From a virus, in IMG/VR virus record IMGVR_UViG_3300020166_000050, positions 1-39,145 of that record: a stretch of DNA of 39,145 nt; one strand, written 5' to 3'. Positions 4,461 through 33,066 of this stretch are shown here, one piece after another. The first letter of the stretch is position 1; the number at the start of each line of letters is the position of its first letter. The notes below the pieces were generated by a model. That model had not been told where the DNA came from and ran no database searches. It was given only the letters and a program-made list of their open reading frames with translations. The position numbers were made by a program, and so were the translations under genes.

Positions 4461-5423
4461 ATGAAGCCTGGAACCTTTTTACACTTACTGAAACAAGTCA
4501 TTACTTTACTAGAGGATGGATCTATATTGAATTATGGAAAGAAATTTTCAAACCTTACTATAACTTCCTACAGACAGGTATACAATCAAATGTCTGCATA
4601 CAATTATAACTTTAATGTAGATGCTTTAGATCTTAATAGCGTAAACAGTAGAAAGGATAGATTGAAGGTCACCCGAAATTTACAGACGCACGTAAATAAG
4701 TACCTCAACATGATGCTAGAAGATTGCAAACATCATAACACCAGGAAAACACATTTAAAAATAATAAGAACAACTCTTAAAAAAGCAGAAGCATATTATG
4801 GTTACCTGTTTCCTGGACTACAGAGCATGAAGGAACTTCAAACGGAGGTCATTGCTCTAGAGCCATCACAAGTAGAACTTATACATAACAACAACCCAGG
4901 AATCGAACTCCAGGATATATGGTACTACACCAGGCTTATGCTATACTCTTGCATGAGAGTAAGTGACCTGGTAAACTTCCAGGCCTCTTCAGATGGCAGT
5001 GTTGTTACGATAATTACTAAAAAAGGAGTAGGATCAATATCTTCTTTTTACTTACCTGATGATGTTTTAAAATTCCTGGAGGGCAAGGGATCCTTTTCTC
5101 AGTCACAACAATACTTTAGAGTAAGACTTAAAGAACTGCTTAAGTTTTATAATGAATTTCATAAAAAGAAAATAGTGTACAGTTATGATCATAACGGTAA
5201 CCCTGTGCATGAAGAAAAGTTTTTGTTTGATCTTATAACTCCCCACAAACTAAGAGCAAGCGGTATAACTTACCAACTATCCAAGGGTCTTAGCGAGATC
5301 GAGGCCAGGAATATTAGCGGGCACACTAACGGCTCAAAAGCATTTTATAGATACGTAAAGCACAGTAACTCAGACTCTATAGAAAAACAAAAAAGAATAC
5401 ACAATCAAATGTTAATAAAATAA
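4461..5423 (+). CDS. Tyrosine recombinase (integrase family), 320 aa
   Basis: Tyrosine recombinase: cuts and rejoins DNA through a 3'-phosphotyrosine link. The N-terminal ~125 residues look like a SAM-like core-binding domain and there is no extra arm-binding domain. The catalytic domain holds Arg166 (SCMRVSDL), Lys187/188 (ITKKG), H262-x-x-R265 (TPHKLR), His288 (ISGHTNG) and the nucleophile, probably Tyr296 (AFYRYV). All key residues are present, so it should be active. It sits in the middle of the early arm, not beside an obvious attachment site. A second, differently built integrase lies at 12555. Possible jobs are integration, genome dimer resolution or DNA inversion; the sequence does not decide. 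Confidence 0.9.
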   Translation: MKPGTFLHLLKQVITLLEDGSILNYGKKFSNLTITSYRQVYNQMSAYNYNFNVDALDLNSVNSRKDRLKVTRNLQTHVNKYLNMMLEDCKHHNTRKTHLKIIRTTLKKAEAYYGYLFPGLQSMKELQTEVIALEPSQVELIHNNNPGIELQDIWYYTRLMLYSCMRVSDLVNFQASSDGSVVTIITKKGVGSISSFYLPDDVLKFLEGKGSFSQSQQYFRVRLKELLKFYNEFHKKKIVYSYDHNGNPVHEEKFLFDLITPHKLRASGITYQLSKGLSEIEARNISGHTNGSKAFYRYVKHSNSDSIEKQKRIHNQMLIK

Positions 5424-12080: not shown

Positions 12081-12287
12081 ATGCCTGGAAAACATAACGT
12101 AATTGAAAGTGAAATATTTAATCACTTTAGAGAAGAAGAAGAAAGAATACAAAAAGCAATTTTACTATTAAAAAAAGATGGTTACATCGTTTATAAAAGG
12201 TCAACAAAAAGTCCAAGAATTTACGATACATTAGGTATAAGCAAACTCATAGTAAAAGTGTCTGACAAAATGACAAAGAGCCTATAA
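12081..12287 (+). CDS. Small protein, unknown (68 aa)
   Basis: A 68-aa charged protein (MPGKHNVIESEIFNHFREEEERIQKAILLLKKDGYIVYKR...), the last gene of the rightward replication operon. A helix (~8-32) is followed by a beta hairpin (GYIVYKRSTKSPRIY) and a basic tail. The helix-plus-wing look could fit a small DNA-binding protein, but there is no recognised family. Confidence 0.55.
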   Translation: MPGKHNVIESEIFNHFREEEERIQKAILLLKKDGYIVYKRSTKSPRIYDTLGISKLIVKVSDKMTKSL

Positions 12288-12310
12288 TCAAAGTTATTAA
12301 CATTAAAATT

Positions 12311-12330
12311 AGGGACCAAATCAGGGACCA
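12311..12330 (+). repeat. 20-bp direct repeat, copy 1
   Basis: AGGGACCAAATCAGGGACCA, itself made of two GGGACCA units 12 bp apart. An identical copy is at 12536-12555. Candidate recombinase or arm-type binding sites. Confidence 0.85.
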
Positions 12331-12365
12331 AAAGAGAGATATTTCTACTTAGATTTGTCTCTTTT
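12330..12365 (+). terminator. Weak intrinsic terminator-like hairpin
   Basis: AAAAGAGA (12330-12337) can pair with TCTCTTTT (12358-12365) around a 20-nt loop, ending in a T-rich run. The stem is AT-rich, so termination would be weak. It would end the replication operon before the integrase region. Confidence 0.35.
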
Positions 12366-12404
12366 TTATGAGGTAGAAGTCTTGAATACCGATATGCTGA
12401 TAAA

Positions 12405-12419
12405 TTAACATCATGTTAA
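12405..12419. promoter_or_regulatory. TTAACAT palindrome, candidate protein-binding site
   Basis: TTAACAT-C-ATGTTAA is a perfect dyad. Single half-sites occur at 12297-12303 and (inverted) 12455-12461. Four half-sites in 165 bp before an integrase suggests binding sites for an integrase, excisionase or repressor. Confidence 0.5.
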
Positions 12420-12441
12420 ACATAGCGGCAAATATATACAA

Positions 12442-12449
12442 TAACTTTG
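12442..12449 (+). promoter_or_regulatory. Candidate Bacteroidota -7 element
   Basis: TAACTTTG fits the Bacteroidota -7 consensus TAnnTTTG, but no good -33 TTG box is seen at the usual distance. It shares the 10-mer ATAACTTTGA with 12493-12502. It could drive the integrase gene. Confidence 0.35.
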
Positions 12450-12493
12450 ACCTAATGTTAATAACCTACCATCAGATTTTCGTGCTTTGTGCA

Positions 12494-12501
12494 TAACTTT
12501 G
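12494..12501 (+). promoter_or_regulatory. Candidate Bacteroidota -7 element for integrase
   Basis: A second TAACTTTG, about 54 nt before the integrase start. No convincing -33 box. If used, transcription would start inside or just before direct repeat copy 2, which would let bound integrase repress its own gene. Confidence 0.4.
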
Positions 12502-12535
12502 AGGCTAACACCTTATAAACAGCATTTTATGTTTT

Positions 12536-12555
12536 AGGGACCAAATCAGGGACCA
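12536..12555 (+). repeat. 20-bp direct repeat, copy 2, overlapping the integrase start
   Basis: Identical to 12311-12330. Its last base is the A of the integrase ATG (12555-12557), so a protein bound here would block translation-start access or transcription. Confidence 0.85.
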
Positions 12556-13808
12556 TGGGACTATTAATTGGAAGCAGAAACGAAACTAATAAAGATGGAA
12601 CTGTATTGTTGCATGTTCGTTTTAAAAATAAACTGCTAGATAAAAAAATATATACTTCAATAAAAGTGTATAAAAAATATTGGGATAAAAAAAACAAAAG
12701 GTTAAAACCTGATCATCCATATTTTGAACAAAAGAATAAACAAGTAAAAAAACTAACGGATGTTGTTCATGATCTTCACATGCAAAGTGCTATTGGAACT
12801 CTTACATTTGAAGAGGCTAAAACTAGATTAACCTATGGATCTTATGTAAATGACATTAATTCCTACCTAGATAATCATCTTAAGGATCAAATGAGAGATA
12901 CCACTTTTAATGATTATAAGAACAAAGTAAGATCAGTTGCTTCTAATATTGGAATTAAGAACCTCACTTTTCAAGATGTATGTCAGAAACAGGTTTGGGT
13001 GAAACTTAAAAAAGTCCTGTTAGAAAGAGGCAGAAGTCCTGCTACATTTAATACTTATCATAGAGCAATAAAAGCAATTCATTCTCACGCTTTAAAAGAT
13101 GAAATCACATTTAATGTTTTTCCTCACGTAAGAACAAATCCACAAAATAATTTCACTCCACAGTGGATTAAATCTCATGAATTAATTGATGTAATTAAAG
13201 ACTTAAACCCCAATGATAAAAAATTTAATAAAGAAGTAATATCTATTTTGATTTATTTATTAATGTTTTCAATGAGAGGAATGTATGCTAAAGACCTTGA
13301 GAAGTTATCAATGAAGTCATTTGTAAACTCTACTTATGAAAATCATAATACATATTTATTTGCTGAAAAGAATATGGTATACAAACACTTTAGATCAAAG
13401 ACTAATAAAATGGGCTTAGTGTATATGGGGCTAGATCCAATAAAGAAAATTATACGATTATTAAATAATATAACCAACACAAACAGTGACAGTCTTTTTC
13501 CAATAATGAGTGGTTCGGTAGATGATAGTGTTTGGAAAGTCAATCAAATGCAATTCAAGAAATTGACAGGTCATAGTTATAAGTCAGCAAGAAAAGCATT
13601 CAACACAACAGGATCCATTATTAGTATTCCAGATGCTGATATAAGAGAACTTATGTTTCAAACAGATAATACAATTTCAAAACATTATAAGGACACTCAG
13701 GCACCAATGATGTTAGCAAAGTATACAAAGTTTCATTCAGACATTTTAATTAAGTACAGGGTATCTGAAATGTTTGAAATGTTGAGGGATAAAGTAATTA
13801 CATTGTAA
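12555..13808 (+). CDS. Bacteroidota-type phage integrase with unusual catalytic residues
   Basis: A 417-aa tyrosine recombinase with the three-part Bacteroidota layout: an N-terminal arm-DNA-binding domain (residues ~1-65, including KKIYTSIKVYKKYWDKKN), a SAM-like core-binding domain (~95-195) and a catalytic domain. Seen: Arg241 (FSMRGMYAKDL), a lysine near 282, Arg346 (SARKAF) and Tyr378 (SKHYKD). The first His of the H-x-x-R box is Lys343 and the second His/Trp position is probably Gln369. This could be a variant active site or impaired activity. It starts inside repeat copy 2. Its stop abuts the stop of the leftward holin gene (convergent). Confidence 0.88.
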   Translation: MGLLIGSRNETNKDGTVLLHVRFKNKLLDKKIYTSIKVYKKYWDKKNKRLKPDHPYFEQKNKQVKKLTDVVHDLHMQSAIGTLTFEEAKTRLTYGSYVNDINSYLDNHLKDQMRDTTFNDYKNKVRSVASNIGIKNLTFQDVCQKQVWVKLKKVLLERGRSPATFNTYHRAIKAIHSHALKDEITFNVFPHVRTNPQNNFTPQWIKSHELIDVIKDLNPNDKKFNKEVISILIYLLMFSMRGMYAKDLEKLSMKSFVNSTYENHNTYLFAEKNMVYKHFRSKTNKMGLVYMGLDPIKKIIRLLNNITNTNSDSLFPIMSGSVDDSVWKVNQMQFKKLTGHSYKSARKAFNTTGSIISIPDADIRELMFQTDNTISKHYKDTQAPMMLAKYTKFHSDILIKYRVSEMFEMLRDKVITL

Positions 13809-27816: not shown

Positions 27817-30800
27817 TTATGGTTGATATGGTGAACCGCTTTGCGAAACAGTTCCAGTTATACTTACAGGTTCCGCAATACCTGTTTCGTTTGATATACC
27901 ATCAAAAGCGTGGACTTTAAAACTTAAGTCTCTTGAACCAACACTTGTGTTTCTAGGTATTTGTATTTGTAAAGTATCAGATGATTGATTATTGTCAAAA
28001 GAAACATTTAGATATCTAGTGTTTAAAATCTCTAATCCTGAAGAAACAACGATCTCAATAGTTCCATTAGCCACACCTAACTGTGTACTCTTTATTGCGT
28101 CAATCTGTACAAATCCGCCTTGGTATGGCACCTCTGATGTTCTTAGTCTAAAACTTCCAATCCCTACATCAGAAGACGTTATTATTAACGACCTTACTTC
28201 TCCGTAATATGTTCCTCCTGCATCTATAGCAAATGCCCTGAAATAGTATGTTAGGTCTTGTATAAAAAGGCGTGCATTACTTTCAAACTCATAGACATAT
28301 TCATCTTGAATCGGAACAGGTATATTTATTTGTTCTACACCTACATAGCCTATTTGTGGGGTCGTCTCTGAAGTAGACCAAACAAAACCATGTTGTTCTA
28401 GATCTGCTGAACCTGTTATAGTTGCTCTTCCTTCAAACTTTTTAGTAGTGTCATCAAATGGAACTGTGTATACTGTTGAAGGTTTTACGTTTTCTTGTCC
28501 TGTAGTGTTAGGAACACAAGATCCATAACTAGTTCCGAAATTAGATCTTAAGAAAGGTTTCACATAGTAAGTAGTACTAGGTGAAAGATCAGATGCTGTA
28601 GTATTAAAATCAACCGCATCCGAAGCGGCAGTTCCAACCACAATAAGTGTTACGTCTGAATCTCCAATTGCAGGATTACTATTTGTTTCTGAAATTACAA
28701 AACCAAAATCAACAGGAGTTTCTCTATTTAAAACGATTCCACTTCTAAAGGTTAATGATGTTGGTGCTACATTAGTATAAACTGGTAACGAAATCACTGC
28801 TCTTTTTAGTGGTCTAGATTCTATGATAATCGAATCAATATCTTCATCTATTCCTGAAATATTAATATTAGAATTTCCTGATAAATAACCAATTCTTTCT
28901 GAGCCTTCTGTAACTGGAGTGGCAGTTGTTGACACTCTATTAGAAGGTATAATAGTACAAACACCTTGAGAGCATTCTGTAAAGTTTATTGAATTTTCAT
29001 CATCATTACCAAATTGCCAAAAAGTCCCAGTAGTTATGGGTATAACTATTGATCCTGAAGATACTGTAATTTCTTTTTCTTCAAAATTCTGTATAGTACT
29101 ATCTACAGCACCAGTTATTCTTATTGGGGTATTACCATTTAAAGTTTCTCCAAAAACAAAATTAGTGTCATTAAAATATAATTTAGGATTTGATACGACT
29201 ACTTCTCCTCCACCCAATTCTTTAATTCTTGCTAATTTAATTGTTATTTGTTCTACGTCACCCCCAACATTTGACACTGTTAAAGACCCTGAACCTGAAA
29301 TATATTGGCCATCATTGTTTGGAGAATTAAAACCTCCAGACGTTGAATTGATGATAGTGATGTTTGTGTTCTCAGGCTCTTCTATTGCATCCGAAGGTAT
29401 ACTAAAACTAAATGGTGATTCAAATGTTATTTGGCCTACACCACTAGTTATTGTAACAGTTCCTGTTATATTCCATGGGCCAAGTATTGTATAGTTTACA
29501 ATCTTATCTGTTGGCTCTTCACCTATATTTGTAATGTCAATAACTGGTGTGTCTGGGTAATAAGGATCTTCTTGTAAAACCGTAACTACCTCACCTGTAC
29601 TAGGTAGAGATATAATGTATTCAGAATTATAATCATCATATGTGCCTATAACAAAATTCTTAATTGAATCATTTAAAATTACATTTGCCTTTGATTTAAA
29701 AAAGGTTTTCATTTTATTATCTCCAATTGCAGTCAACCCATTAGAATCATATCTAACAACTGTCTCATTTTTAACATCAAACCAAAATGCTGTACCTTCA
29801 TTTACAACTATAGATTCAGGATGCATTGTACCATAAGATCCTTTTAATGTATTCATGGTTCCAATAACTCCAGAAGAAACTGCTAAAAACTGTCCTCCAC
29901 TAGAGGTTTGTTGTAATTGCTGTTCTCCAAGATATATACCAGTTGTTTCATTTTCAGAAATAGCCAACAATACAGAACCTGTAGATTGAGTTTTGCTAGT
30001 TATTTTCAATGCTCTTAATGGTCCTGTAGCGTCATCTAACCTCTTCTCATCCAATGCACTAAACTTAGATAGTCCATTTATTTTACTTCCTGGAATTTTT
30101 GTTTCGCTAAATACAATCGCTGTAGTCTTCTTTTGACTACTAACCTCTGACGGTACTAAATTAGGTTTACCTGTAATTTGAGTCCAATTTAAAAAGTAAT
30201 CATTACTTGGATTCATTGATTCAGCAGAATAAGGGAATTCATCAGTATAATCTACGTTCATAGTATGATTTCCATTAATATTTCTACCACCACTTCTTTT
30301 TCTTAATACACCTTCATAAATCATATGTATAGTAGACCCATCACTCCTACTTACCTCTTGGGATACAGATGACCCTAGATAATTTAAAATGTTTAATTGG
30401 GTTTGCCCACCATTACCTGACGGATCAACAACCCCTCTTCTAAATGAAAAATTATCCATATCTCCTTGAGCCGCTGCCATTACAACAGACCCAAAACTGC
30501 TTTCCCAAAATAATTCTTCTATATTATCATAAGTTCTAGTAACTGATGTAGCAGGATAAGTAACCTCCCAAGTTCTTCTATCCTCAGAAGCAACAAGAGT
30601 ACCTTGCTTGTATTCTGTGAGGTATAGTTTAATTTCTGAGTTTATTAATATGGTTCCATTTGGAGGTGAAGCCCAAGTAGCAGTATACCTTTTATGTTCC
30701 TCATTCATTCCAGAGTTATCAGCAATCTTTGCATTTACAACCCATCTGTCATCTATAGTATGTCCTGTTGTACTTTCAAACTTTATAGTAACACCATTAT

Positions 30801-33066
30801 CTAATGTTTGTGTGTTACCTGTTATACTTACTTCACCACTATAACCTACGTTTGTAGTATACTGAGTTCTTGTTCTTTTTCTCCATCTGAATTTATCAGG
30901 AGTTCCCGTAGAAGATATTTTAATGTCATATCTAAGATCTAGATTATGACTTCCATTATTTACACCTGTATTACATTCCAAATCATTTTCACCATCCCCA
31001 TAAAATACAGGAAAATCAATATATTTTATCTCTCCTTTAAGTTCATGATCCTGACCACTGTCTGTAGAAGAGTGCCCCTGGAAAAAATAACTTTCTAAAG
31101 CACTCGTGTCGGCTATAAGTTTTCTTAGATAAACATCTCCAATTAATTCTTCAGTTGTATTTGAAAAAGATGCGTTACCGCTAGAGTCTCTTAATATCCT
31201 TCCATTAAATGCTTCATAATAAAACTCATTAGGCTGTATTTTATGTGGACTATATATTTCATAAACAACAGCATAATCTTTATTTGATAATGCACTAGTA
31301 TTTAAATACTGTTCATCATTTAAATCATAAAGGTTAGTTGTGACATACCTTCCTGACTGTCCTGTTACTGCTGCTTCAATTACACCATCATTCGTGATTA
31401 ACTTAACTCTATCCCCCTCTTGATATGTATATCCTTGCTTATATGATGTTAGGTCACCCAAACCAATTGCACATCCTTCAAAATCAGCCCTAAACGAAAC
31501 ATGTTCTGCATCAGAAAATGTTCCATTTGGAGTATCTGATATTGCTTTTCTATCGTTCTCGTCATTTACAGGATAATTTTTTTCTACATTTACAGTGAAA
31601 TTCCCTGTAGATGCAGTTGTATAATATCTCACCTTATCAGATAGATTTGATATTGTAAAGTCTTTAGTTAAATTTTTAGTTCTAACTATAGCATAATATT
31701 CAGCCCAATCTGGTATTTTACTTGCTAAAGATGGATTTAAATTAAACCTAATAGATGAATTATATGTTGACAAATCAACACCTCTTTCAGGTGTTATAAC
31801 TTTTAAACTATCGTCTGTTAATACACCTCCTGTTCTGCCTGCAAAATCAAAAAAAGCAATACCTATTTGGTATGCTGATGAGTGTGCAAAACCTACCTTT
31901 CCACCTCTATCTCTATCATATTGATTAAAACTATCAGTAAAAGATTGTGTTAACAAGTCTAAAGAAATGTCTTCTGAAGTGATTTGTTCAGGGTTTAATC
32001 TTCCTTCTTTTATATTACCTAAAAACAATCTGTTTCGTGCAATACTTAATGCTTCTGCTTCATACGGAACTGCATCTGATAGTTTTATAGAGTTGACATC
32101 ATCAACAGCAAAACCCAAAACATCATTATAAAAATCAGCAGTTATTACTCCAGACTGACTTTTAGTTTGATCAGCAAATTCTGTTTCATGAGTTTTACTA
32201 TCAAATTCTTTCCATATAAAATATGATGTATCAGAATCAAATTTAACTGCGTATTGTACTTTATGTACATCTTGATATATACCAGTTTCATCGGCCTCAA
32301 ATTGAGGAAAATCCACTTTGATTTTTTTTGATGTTTTATGATTATCATCATCCATATCCTGGTTAGGATAATGATATGATGTAGGCGAAAAAACACTTGT
32401 CTCTCCATCTTTATAAACATACCTATAGGCAAAAGTATGTGCCCTAGATTTTAAAAAGGATGTATCTCTCGTATCGTCCTCCTGAACTGTAATCTTAAGA
32501 GGCAACATTGGAGGTTTACGAATAAGAGTGACTATTGATTTTTTTATTGGTAGATTATATGGATCAGCGTCATATTGGCTGTTATTGGCTGCAATACCTC
32601 TCTCTACATTTATTCTAAATGGCTCTTTACCATCTATACCTGTCCAATACAATATATCATCTATATATGCTATTCCAGTAATTGGCTTTTCTGGATCAAA
32701 ACCTAACCTGTAGGATGCCTCCATATTACTATCTGCAAGTACTTTATAAATATTATCCTCCTTGGGTTTATAACAATAAATACTAGACGCTTTATACCTT
32801 GTCGATGGATTTTCATCAACTAAAAAATAAAATATATTATTAGTAGTAGGATCCTCATAAGTTCCTATACATTTCGTAGATCTTGACAAGTCTTGTGAGT
32901 TAGGGATATTTCTTGTCCCATTTACATTAGATATTGAACCTGCTTTACCTTCAGATGAAGAGACTACCCTTACATTAAGAGCATCTAAATTATCTTGACC
33001 AGTATGGGCAAAAAAAGAATCATCGGCATTAATTCCCGCTATAAATGTTTTTTTTGAGTTTTCCAT
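27817..33066 (-). CDS. Large tail/stabilisation protein (TTPB/gp10-like, 1749 aa)
   Basis: The N-terminus (FIAGINADDSFFAHTGQDNLDALNVRVVSS) and the propeller-like ITGIAYIDDILYWTGIDG (~128-145) resemble the packaged-DNA stabilisation / tail-tube B proteins of podoviruses. The first ~1150 residues are beta-rich. The last ~350 hold fibronectin-III-like repeats of the Bacteroidota type (LSPSTTYYVKPFLRSNFGTSYG; then LTYYFRAFAIDAGGTYYGEV) and a final Ig-like piece. It is expected to plug the tail channel below the ring proteins, with decorations for surface contact. It follows three neck genes directly. Confidence 0.68.
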   Translation of the reverse strand: MENSKKTFIAGINADDSFFAHTGQDNLDALNVRVVSSSEGKAGSISNVNGTRNIPNSQDLSRSTKCIGTYEDPTTNNIFYFLVDENPSTRYKASSIYCYKPKEDNIYKVLADSNMEASYRLGFDPEKPITGIAYIDDILYWTGIDGKEPFRINVERGIAANNSQYDADPYNLPIKKSIVTLIRKPPMLPLKITVQEDDTRDTSFLKSRAHTFAYRYVYKDGETSVFSPTSYHYPNQDMDDDNHKTSKKIKVDFPQFEADETGIYQDVHKVQYAVKFDSDTSYFIWKEFDSKTHETEFADQTKSQSGVITADFYNDVLGFAVDDVNSIKLSDAVPYEAEALSIARNRLFLGNIKEGRLNPEQITSEDISLDLLTQSFTDSFNQYDRDRGGKVGFAHSSAYQIGIAFFDFAGRTGGVLTDDSLKVITPERGVDLSTYNSSIRFNLNPSLASKIPDWAEYYAIVRTKNLTKDFTISNLSDKVRYYTTASTGNFTVNVEKNYPVNDENDRKAISDTPNGTFSDAEHVSFRADFEGCAIGLGDLTSYKQGYTYQEGDRVKLITNDGVIEAAVTGQSGRYVTTNLYDLNDEQYLNTSALSNKDYAVVYEIYSPHKIQPNEFYYEAFNGRILRDSSGNASFSNTTEELIGDVYLRKLIADTSALESYFFQGHSSTDSGQDHELKGEIKYIDFPVFYGDGENDLECNTGVNNGSHNLDLRYDIKISSTGTPDKFRWRKRTRTQYTTNVGYSGEVSITGNTQTLDNGVTIKFESTTGHTIDDRWVVNAKIADNSGMNEEHKRYTATWASPPNGTILINSEIKLYLTEYKQGTLVASEDRRTWEVTYPATSVTRTYDNIEELFWESSFGSVVMAAAQGDMDNFSFRRGVVDPSGNGGQTQLNILNYLGSSVSQEVSRSDGSTIHMIYEGVLRKRSGGRNINGNHTMNVDYTDEFPYSAESMNPSNDYFLNWTQITGKPNLVPSEVSSQKKTTAIVFSETKIPGSKINGLSKFSALDEKRLDDATGPLRALKITSKTQSTGSVLLAISENETTGIYLGEQQLQQTSSGGQFLAVSSGVIGTMNTLKGSYGTMHPESIVVNEGTAFWFDVKNETVVRYDSNGLTAIGDNKMKTFFKSKANVILNDSIKNFVIGTYDDYNSEYIISLPSTGEVVTVLQEDPYYPDTPVIDITNIGEEPTDKIVNYTILGPWNITGTVTITSGVGQITFESPFSFSIPSDAIEEPENTNITIINSTSGGFNSPNNDGQYISGSGSLTVSNVGGDVEQITIKLARIKELGGGEVVVSNPKLYFNDTNFVFGETLNGNTPIRITGAVDSTIQNFEEKEITVSSGSIVIPITTGTFWQFGNDDENSINFTECSQGVCTIIPSNRVSTTATPVTEGSERIGYLSGNSNINISGIDEDIDSIIIESRPLKRAVISLPVYTNVAPTSLTFRSGIVLNRETPVDFGFVISETNSNPAIGDSDVTLIVVGTAASDAVDFNTTASDLSPSTTYYVKPFLRSNFGTSYGSCVPNTTGQENVKPSTVYTVPFDDTTKKFEGRATITGSADLEQHGFVWSTSETTPQIGYVGVEQINIPVPIQDEYVYEFESNARLFIQDLTYYFRAFAIDAGGTYYGEVRSLIITSSDVGIGSFRLRTSEVPYQGGFVQIDAIKSTQLGVANGTIEIVVSSGLEILNTRYLNVSFDNNQSSDTLQIQIPRNTSVGSRDLSFKVHAFDGISNETGIAEPVSITGTVSQSGSPYQP

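Follow-up and report, generated by a model that had tools for sequence, protein, structure and literature searches.

Phage attachment sites of the lambda type and of the mycobacteriophage L5 type are about 250 bp long and lie beside int, with direct-repeat arm sites flanking inverted half-sites and a 7-bp overlap. Among Bacteroidota, the integrase IntDOT of the conjugative element CTnDOT has an arm-binding domain and uses subterminal arm sites (PMC8138268). A literature search found no paper on an attP of the kind described below in flavobacteria.

We analyzed a 39,145-base IMG/VR virus record, classed as linear and referred to here in its full length as the window. The repeats that precede its integrase gene look like an attP, with paired outer sites flanking a central exchange site, an arrangement that is standard and, judged from sequence, unusually clear. 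Very probably the phage is a temperate phage of Flavobacteriaceae and positions 12260–12555 are its attP. The region resembles the lambda and L5 sites in its length, in the arm repeats on both sides, in the putative 7-bp overlap, and in the adjoining int. In contrast to those sites, its arm sites are two identical doublets with a 12-bp period, of which the integrase-side one overlaps the start codon. The site is of a known kind and is a new, well-resolved example, with the putative arms, half-sites, overlap, and promoter of an attP mapped to the base in a flavobacterial phage lineage that is known here from metagenome contigs alone. The original prediction was of an attP with arm- and core-type sites next to the integrase gene; relatives and three integrated elements bear out this layout, and the assignment of its parts is revised below.

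Overall architecture of the probable attachment region

The features of the region are listed in Table 1. In the proposed mechanism, the integrase would bind both GGGACCA doublets through its N-terminal arm-binding domain and the two inverted half-sites through its core-binding and catalytic domains, and strand exchange with a host attB would take place across the spacer of about 7 bp between the half-sites.

Table 1. Features of the putative attP and the adjoining integrase gene (window positions)
Feature	Position	Strand	Remarks
attP–integrase block	12260–13808	+	Left edge GTCTGAC (12260–12266) kept in relatives
Conserved left element	12288–12303	-	TGTTAATAACTTTGA on the minus strand; nearly all relatives have CAAAGTTATnnACA upstream of the distal doublet
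Distal doublet, putative arm-type site	12309–12330	+	Two GGGACCA units, 12-bp period; place kept in relatives
Hairpin with T-run	12330–12367	+	RNA fold -14.9 kcal/mol, z = -4.56
Palindrome TTAACAT-C-ATGTTAA	12405–12419		Not conserved beyond the 93% relative
Left core half-site (predicted)	12437–12446	+	TACAATAACT; invariant in 11 sequences
Spacer, putative overlap region	12447–12453	+	7 bp; variation at 6 of 7 positions, 7 versions
Right core half-site (predicted)	12454–12465	+	AATGTTAATAAC; invariant in 11 sequences; holds a TTAACAT half-site of the minus strand
Probable integrase promoter	12472–12501	+	TCAG (-33-like), 18 bp, TAACTTTG (-7) at 12494–12501
Integrase-side doublet, putative arm-type site	12534–12555	+	Last base opens the start codon
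Tyrosine integrase	12555–13808	+	417 aa; N-terminal Arm-DNA-bind_5 domain

Integrase

The N-terminal part of the integrase matches the arm-binding domain Arm-DNA-bind_5 (PF17293) with 32.2 bits against a Pfam cut-off of 22.6, and the protein also matches a PHROG integrase family. No Pfam catalytic domain matches above threshold. The catalytic part is divergent, with Arg241, Lys282, Arg346, and Tyr378 invariant across ten relatives and the two catalytic His positions seemingly replaced by Lys343 and Gln369, as we assign them from motifs. Structure prediction reached a mean pLDDT of 64.8, a modest confidence. With this low-confidence model, Foldseek ranks tyrosine recombinases in all of the first 15 places, with lambda integrase on a Holliday junction at the top. 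Searches of phage and plasmid records by tblastn and of solved structures by sequence gave zero matches.

A second tyrosine-recombinase-like gene is found at 4461–5423. It has no match to the arm-binding domain, is 82–98% conserved in relatives, and perhaps encodes a resolvase.

Putative arm-type doublets

Two identical repeats of 20 bp had been predicted at a distance of 225 bp. The identity, the make-up as GGGACCA doublets, and the start-to-start distance of 225 bp hold, and the repeat, TTAGGGACCAAATCAGGGACCA, is 22 bp long. Exact direct repeats reached at most 12 bp in 400 simulated 288-bp segments with matched dinucleotide composition, which places the 22-bp repeat beyond chance. All four copies of GGGACCA in the window, counted on both strands, lie inside the two doublets, and the second repeat extends, as had been noted, to the first base of the integrase ATG, the A at 12555. 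From sequence, both doublets are best read as arm-type sites.

Relatives of the integrase in IMG/VR share 93%, 67–68%, or 55–58% identity with it. In every relative with upstream DNA, one doublet lies at the start codon and another 225–256 bp upstream, with a near-invariant block in between. In the 55–58% clade, the distal doublet has a degenerate or inverted outer unit. The units differ among genomes (GGGACC, GGGACT, GGGAAC), and within one genome both doublets tend to carry the same variant. All four units read ACC in the window and ACT in L027 and L029, and between the window and L004 the same base is changed in both doublets. Such sharing is the expected outcome of one binding domain acting on both doublets.

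A search of IMG/VR for the pattern AGGGACC-N5-AGGGACC-ATG also returned four contigs outside the integrase family (L014–L017). We treated these as chance matches, none having an integrase reading frame at that ATG. Two of them, the large viral contigs L015 and L017, contain an intergenic AGGGACCAAGAGAGGGACC doublet with more GGGACC units close by and no integrase frame at the next ATG.

Probable core between the doublets

The core most likely spans 12437–12465 and comprises one TAACTTTG box and one inverted TTAACAT half-site, its halves forming imperfect inverted repeats (TAACTTT, TAACATT). Invariant half-sites around a short variable spacer are the mark expected of a tyrosine-recombinase core in which the overlap changes with the target. 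By post hoc arithmetic, six variable columns placed at random among the 29 would be confined to a single 7-column stretch in about 3 of 10,000 cases. The region presents, on sequence evidence alone, inverted half-sites around a 7-bp spacer, a length within the 6–8 bp expected of an overlap, with repeated putative arm-type sites on both sides that are conserved and are paired likewise in integrated elements. We infer the position of the crossover within this core, and with it the exact cleavage points, from layout and conservation in a lineage for which the searches described below yielded neither an integrated copy nor an attB.

A degenerate pattern of the core, searched across all of IMG/VR, was found in 16 contigs, every one of which carries this integrase family; the remaining relatives (L035/L054, L056) end before reaching the core. 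The core is unsplit in all 16, which marks these copies as unintegrated forms.

The four predicted TTAACAT half-sites are all present, at 12297(+), 12405(+), 12413(-), and 12455(-), two of them forming a perfect palindrome. This palindrome is confined to the nearest relatives. We rejected it as the likely core, on conservation rather than on a junction, because it is missing from the 67% and 55–58% clades while 12437–12465 is invariant. Both predicted TAACTTTG boxes also exist (12442 and 12494), together with an inverted third copy at 12289–12296 that had been missed. Only the box at 12442 belongs to the putative core, and the one at 12494 fits a promoter -7 element better. Neither motif is enriched window-wide (for TTAACAT, 13 found against 16.2 expected), so that only position and conservation carry weight.

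In place of the palindrome of the window, the 67% clade (L023–L030) has four 11-bp repeats in tandem, reading TGGGAYACCCN on the minus strand (for example, at about 4350–4395 in L023). These are possibly excisionase or regulator sites. Neither an IHF site nor an excisionase gene was identified in the phage.

The phage half-site TAACTTTG(C/A) resembles the IntDOT core GTANNTTTGC. The two systems are alike in having a Bacteroidota integrase with an arm-binding domain and variable bases beside a core half-site. They differ in that the present element is a phage rather than a conjugative element, has paired doublets, and retains the box-I Arg (Arg241). By analogy, the phage might integrate with relaxed overlap homology as CTnDOT does, recognizing host sites that resemble TAACTTTG, and so a promoter -7 element, and carrying host bases as a coupling sequence. 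The spacer variation is compatible with non-identical overlap (coupling) sequences of the IntDOT type, and if this reading were true, the variable 7 bp would be a record of earlier target sites. We consider it unlikely.

Integrated elements in Flavobacteriaceae genomes

A profile search of 397 Flavobacteriaceae genomes identified distant relatives of the integrase in eight, and the species-genome collection yielded no close relative. Several of the eight have a tandem doublet with a 12-bp period just before the integrase gene and a tRNA 3' end farther upstream. In two of these elements, G310 (tRNA-Ala) and G298, a doublet with three mismatches to the integrase-side one is located at the opposite att repeat, where it has the same orientation and lies just within the element. 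A third, G314 (tRNA-Asn), has a more diverged doublet, spotted by eye, in the corresponding place. After joining of the ends, the doublets are spaced by 218 bp in G310, 209 bp in G298, and 252 bp in G314, compared with 225 bp in the window. Across the 108 kb of G310, just the two doublet places match at three or fewer mismatches.

The order in G310 and G314 is that of the window, namely distal doublet, hairpin, core, integrase-side doublet, and integrase. The core lies 71 bp from the integrase-side doublet in the window and about 100 bp in G310. All three elements share with the window a doublet at the integrase start and a second one just inside the opposite att repeat, whereas their doublet sequences differ and their integrases are only distantly related. 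Furthermore, the core of G310 and G314 is the 3' part of a tRNA, unlike that of the window, and G310 has a TAnnTTTG element between doublet and ATG. These elements give the strongest support for the attP, since the place of the doublets relative to a real attachment site is visible in them. Points that weigh against the attP reading are the somewhat different core position, the distant relationship of the integrases compared, the seemingly replaced catalytic His positions, and the failure of the genome searches to reveal an attB, attL, or attR of this lineage.

The integrated elements also weigh on the possibility that the region serves solely to control the integrase gene, through operator repeats, a promoter, and an upstream terminator, with the attachment site elsewhere in the phage. 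Such a control region would account for the promoter-like element, the hairpin, and the doublet on the start codon. An operator pair does not explain why, in three elements, the second doublet stands beside the att at the far end, 10–15 kb from the integrase, and a variable spacer within invariant inverted half-sites is unexpected of an operator. We therefore regard this alternative as very unlikely.

Among 29 further Arm-DNA-bind_5 integrases of Flavobacteriaceae, near-perfect doublets (9–10 of 10 bases matching, within 150 bp upstream of the integrase) with a period of 11 or 12 bp occurred 13 times, at 12 loci, while periods of 9, 10, 13, and 14 bp together gave one. This indicates that putative arm doublets with an 11–12 bp period near the integrase start are widespread in this group. 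Such doublets could help to locate where mobile elements end in genomes. The proposed attP, in turn, gives work on site-specific integration in Bacteroidota a starting point.

Probable promoter and possible self-repression of the integrase

The -7 box of flavobacterial sigma-A is TAnnTTTG (PMC9723704). The TAACTTTG box at 12494 fits this consensus, is nearly invariant, and has a conserved TCWG 18 bp upstream; a sigma-70 promoter scan is uninformative for this phylum. The integrase would accordingly be transcribed from a promoter inside attP, with a start near 12507. The start-codon doublet lies downstream of this predicted start, and integrase bound there could act as a roadblock that lowers its own expression. 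A precedent is intS of KplE1 in E. coli, whose promoter overlaps the attachment region and permits negative autoregulation, as demonstrated experimentally (PMC2951348). In the phage, by comparison, the doublet follows the predicted promoter, and autoregulation is suggested by the arrangement of the sequence. We judge self-repression to be plausible, with the chances about evenly balanced.

The hairpin downstream of the distal doublet is a probable terminator of the upstream operon, according to the predicted fold. Its stem is AT-rich, and a GC-based terminator scan did not report it.

Left edge and orientation of the block

The conserved left element resembles 12487–12501 in inverse orientation and is possibly an extra core-like site or a site for an accessory protein. 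The DnaA box is TTATNCACA, and both of these elements (at 12289 and 12487–12501) contain TTATnnACA or TTATGCACA-like sequences that resemble it. With a primase-helicase gene near the attP region, an origin of replication made up of iterons and DnaA boxes beside the replication genes might also be envisaged. The left element lacks the C of the DnaA box in the window and several relatives, the core is found only with this integrase family, and the block travels with the integrase, even when inverted between unchanged neighbors, which makes an origin highly improbable.

The sequence GTCTGAC is found about 292–315 bp upstream of the integrase in the window and in relatives, whichever the orientation of the block. 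In the 55–58% clade (L050–L056), everything from GTCTGAC through int is inverted between the same two neighbor genes, which sets the left limit of the functional unit at about 12260. Integrase conservation of 55–67% is below that of most adjoining replication genes, many of which exceed 85%. A module subject to replacement or rapid divergence would be expected to show such a gap. That clades differ in the orientation of the block, its flanking genes being unchanged, could suggest a switch flipped by its own integrase, but this is the least probable reading of all, with a single core per cassette, no inverted GTCTGAC edge beyond int, and an orientation uniform per clade, which, together with the mere 55–58% identity of the inverted clade's integrase, suggests module replacement or an old inversion.

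Search for attB and junctions

The genome collections searched contained no recognizable attB, attL, or attR of this lineage, and no integrated copy turned up in the species-genome collection or the Flavobacteriaceae genomes. In the latter (397 genomes), the phage primase-helicase gave only matches of 33–35%. A profile search of 395 genomes of the class was also empty, which carries little weight by itself.

The 17-mer AACTTTGACCTAATGTT has 23 matches in the species-genome collection, about the chance number, with no consistent target; six of them represent one orthologous intergenic Flavobacterium locus. Two matches in Flavobacteriaceae MAGs lie inside a frame that we read as uvrA-like (VTLGQSS...LSGGEAQR). 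We rejected uvrA as attB, given that several phage spacers would alter or stop this frame and that the match count is near chance. A tRNA target was likewise rejected, as no tRNA genes were found in the window and the core does not resemble an anticodon arm.

Other features of the phage genome

Two hammerhead-ribozyme-like motifs are located at 383–443 and 1438–1494, with a common core CTGATGAGCCTGTGAGATCCAGGCGAAAC and different outer stems. Rfam hammerhead models match both below their gathering scores only, and both are predicted to fold into the three-stem hammerhead shape.

A protein of 1749 aa (27817–33066) shares about 27% identity with virion structural proteins of the Cellulophaga phages phi38:1, phi40:1, and Calle, a match that ties the phage to this group of flavobacterial phages.
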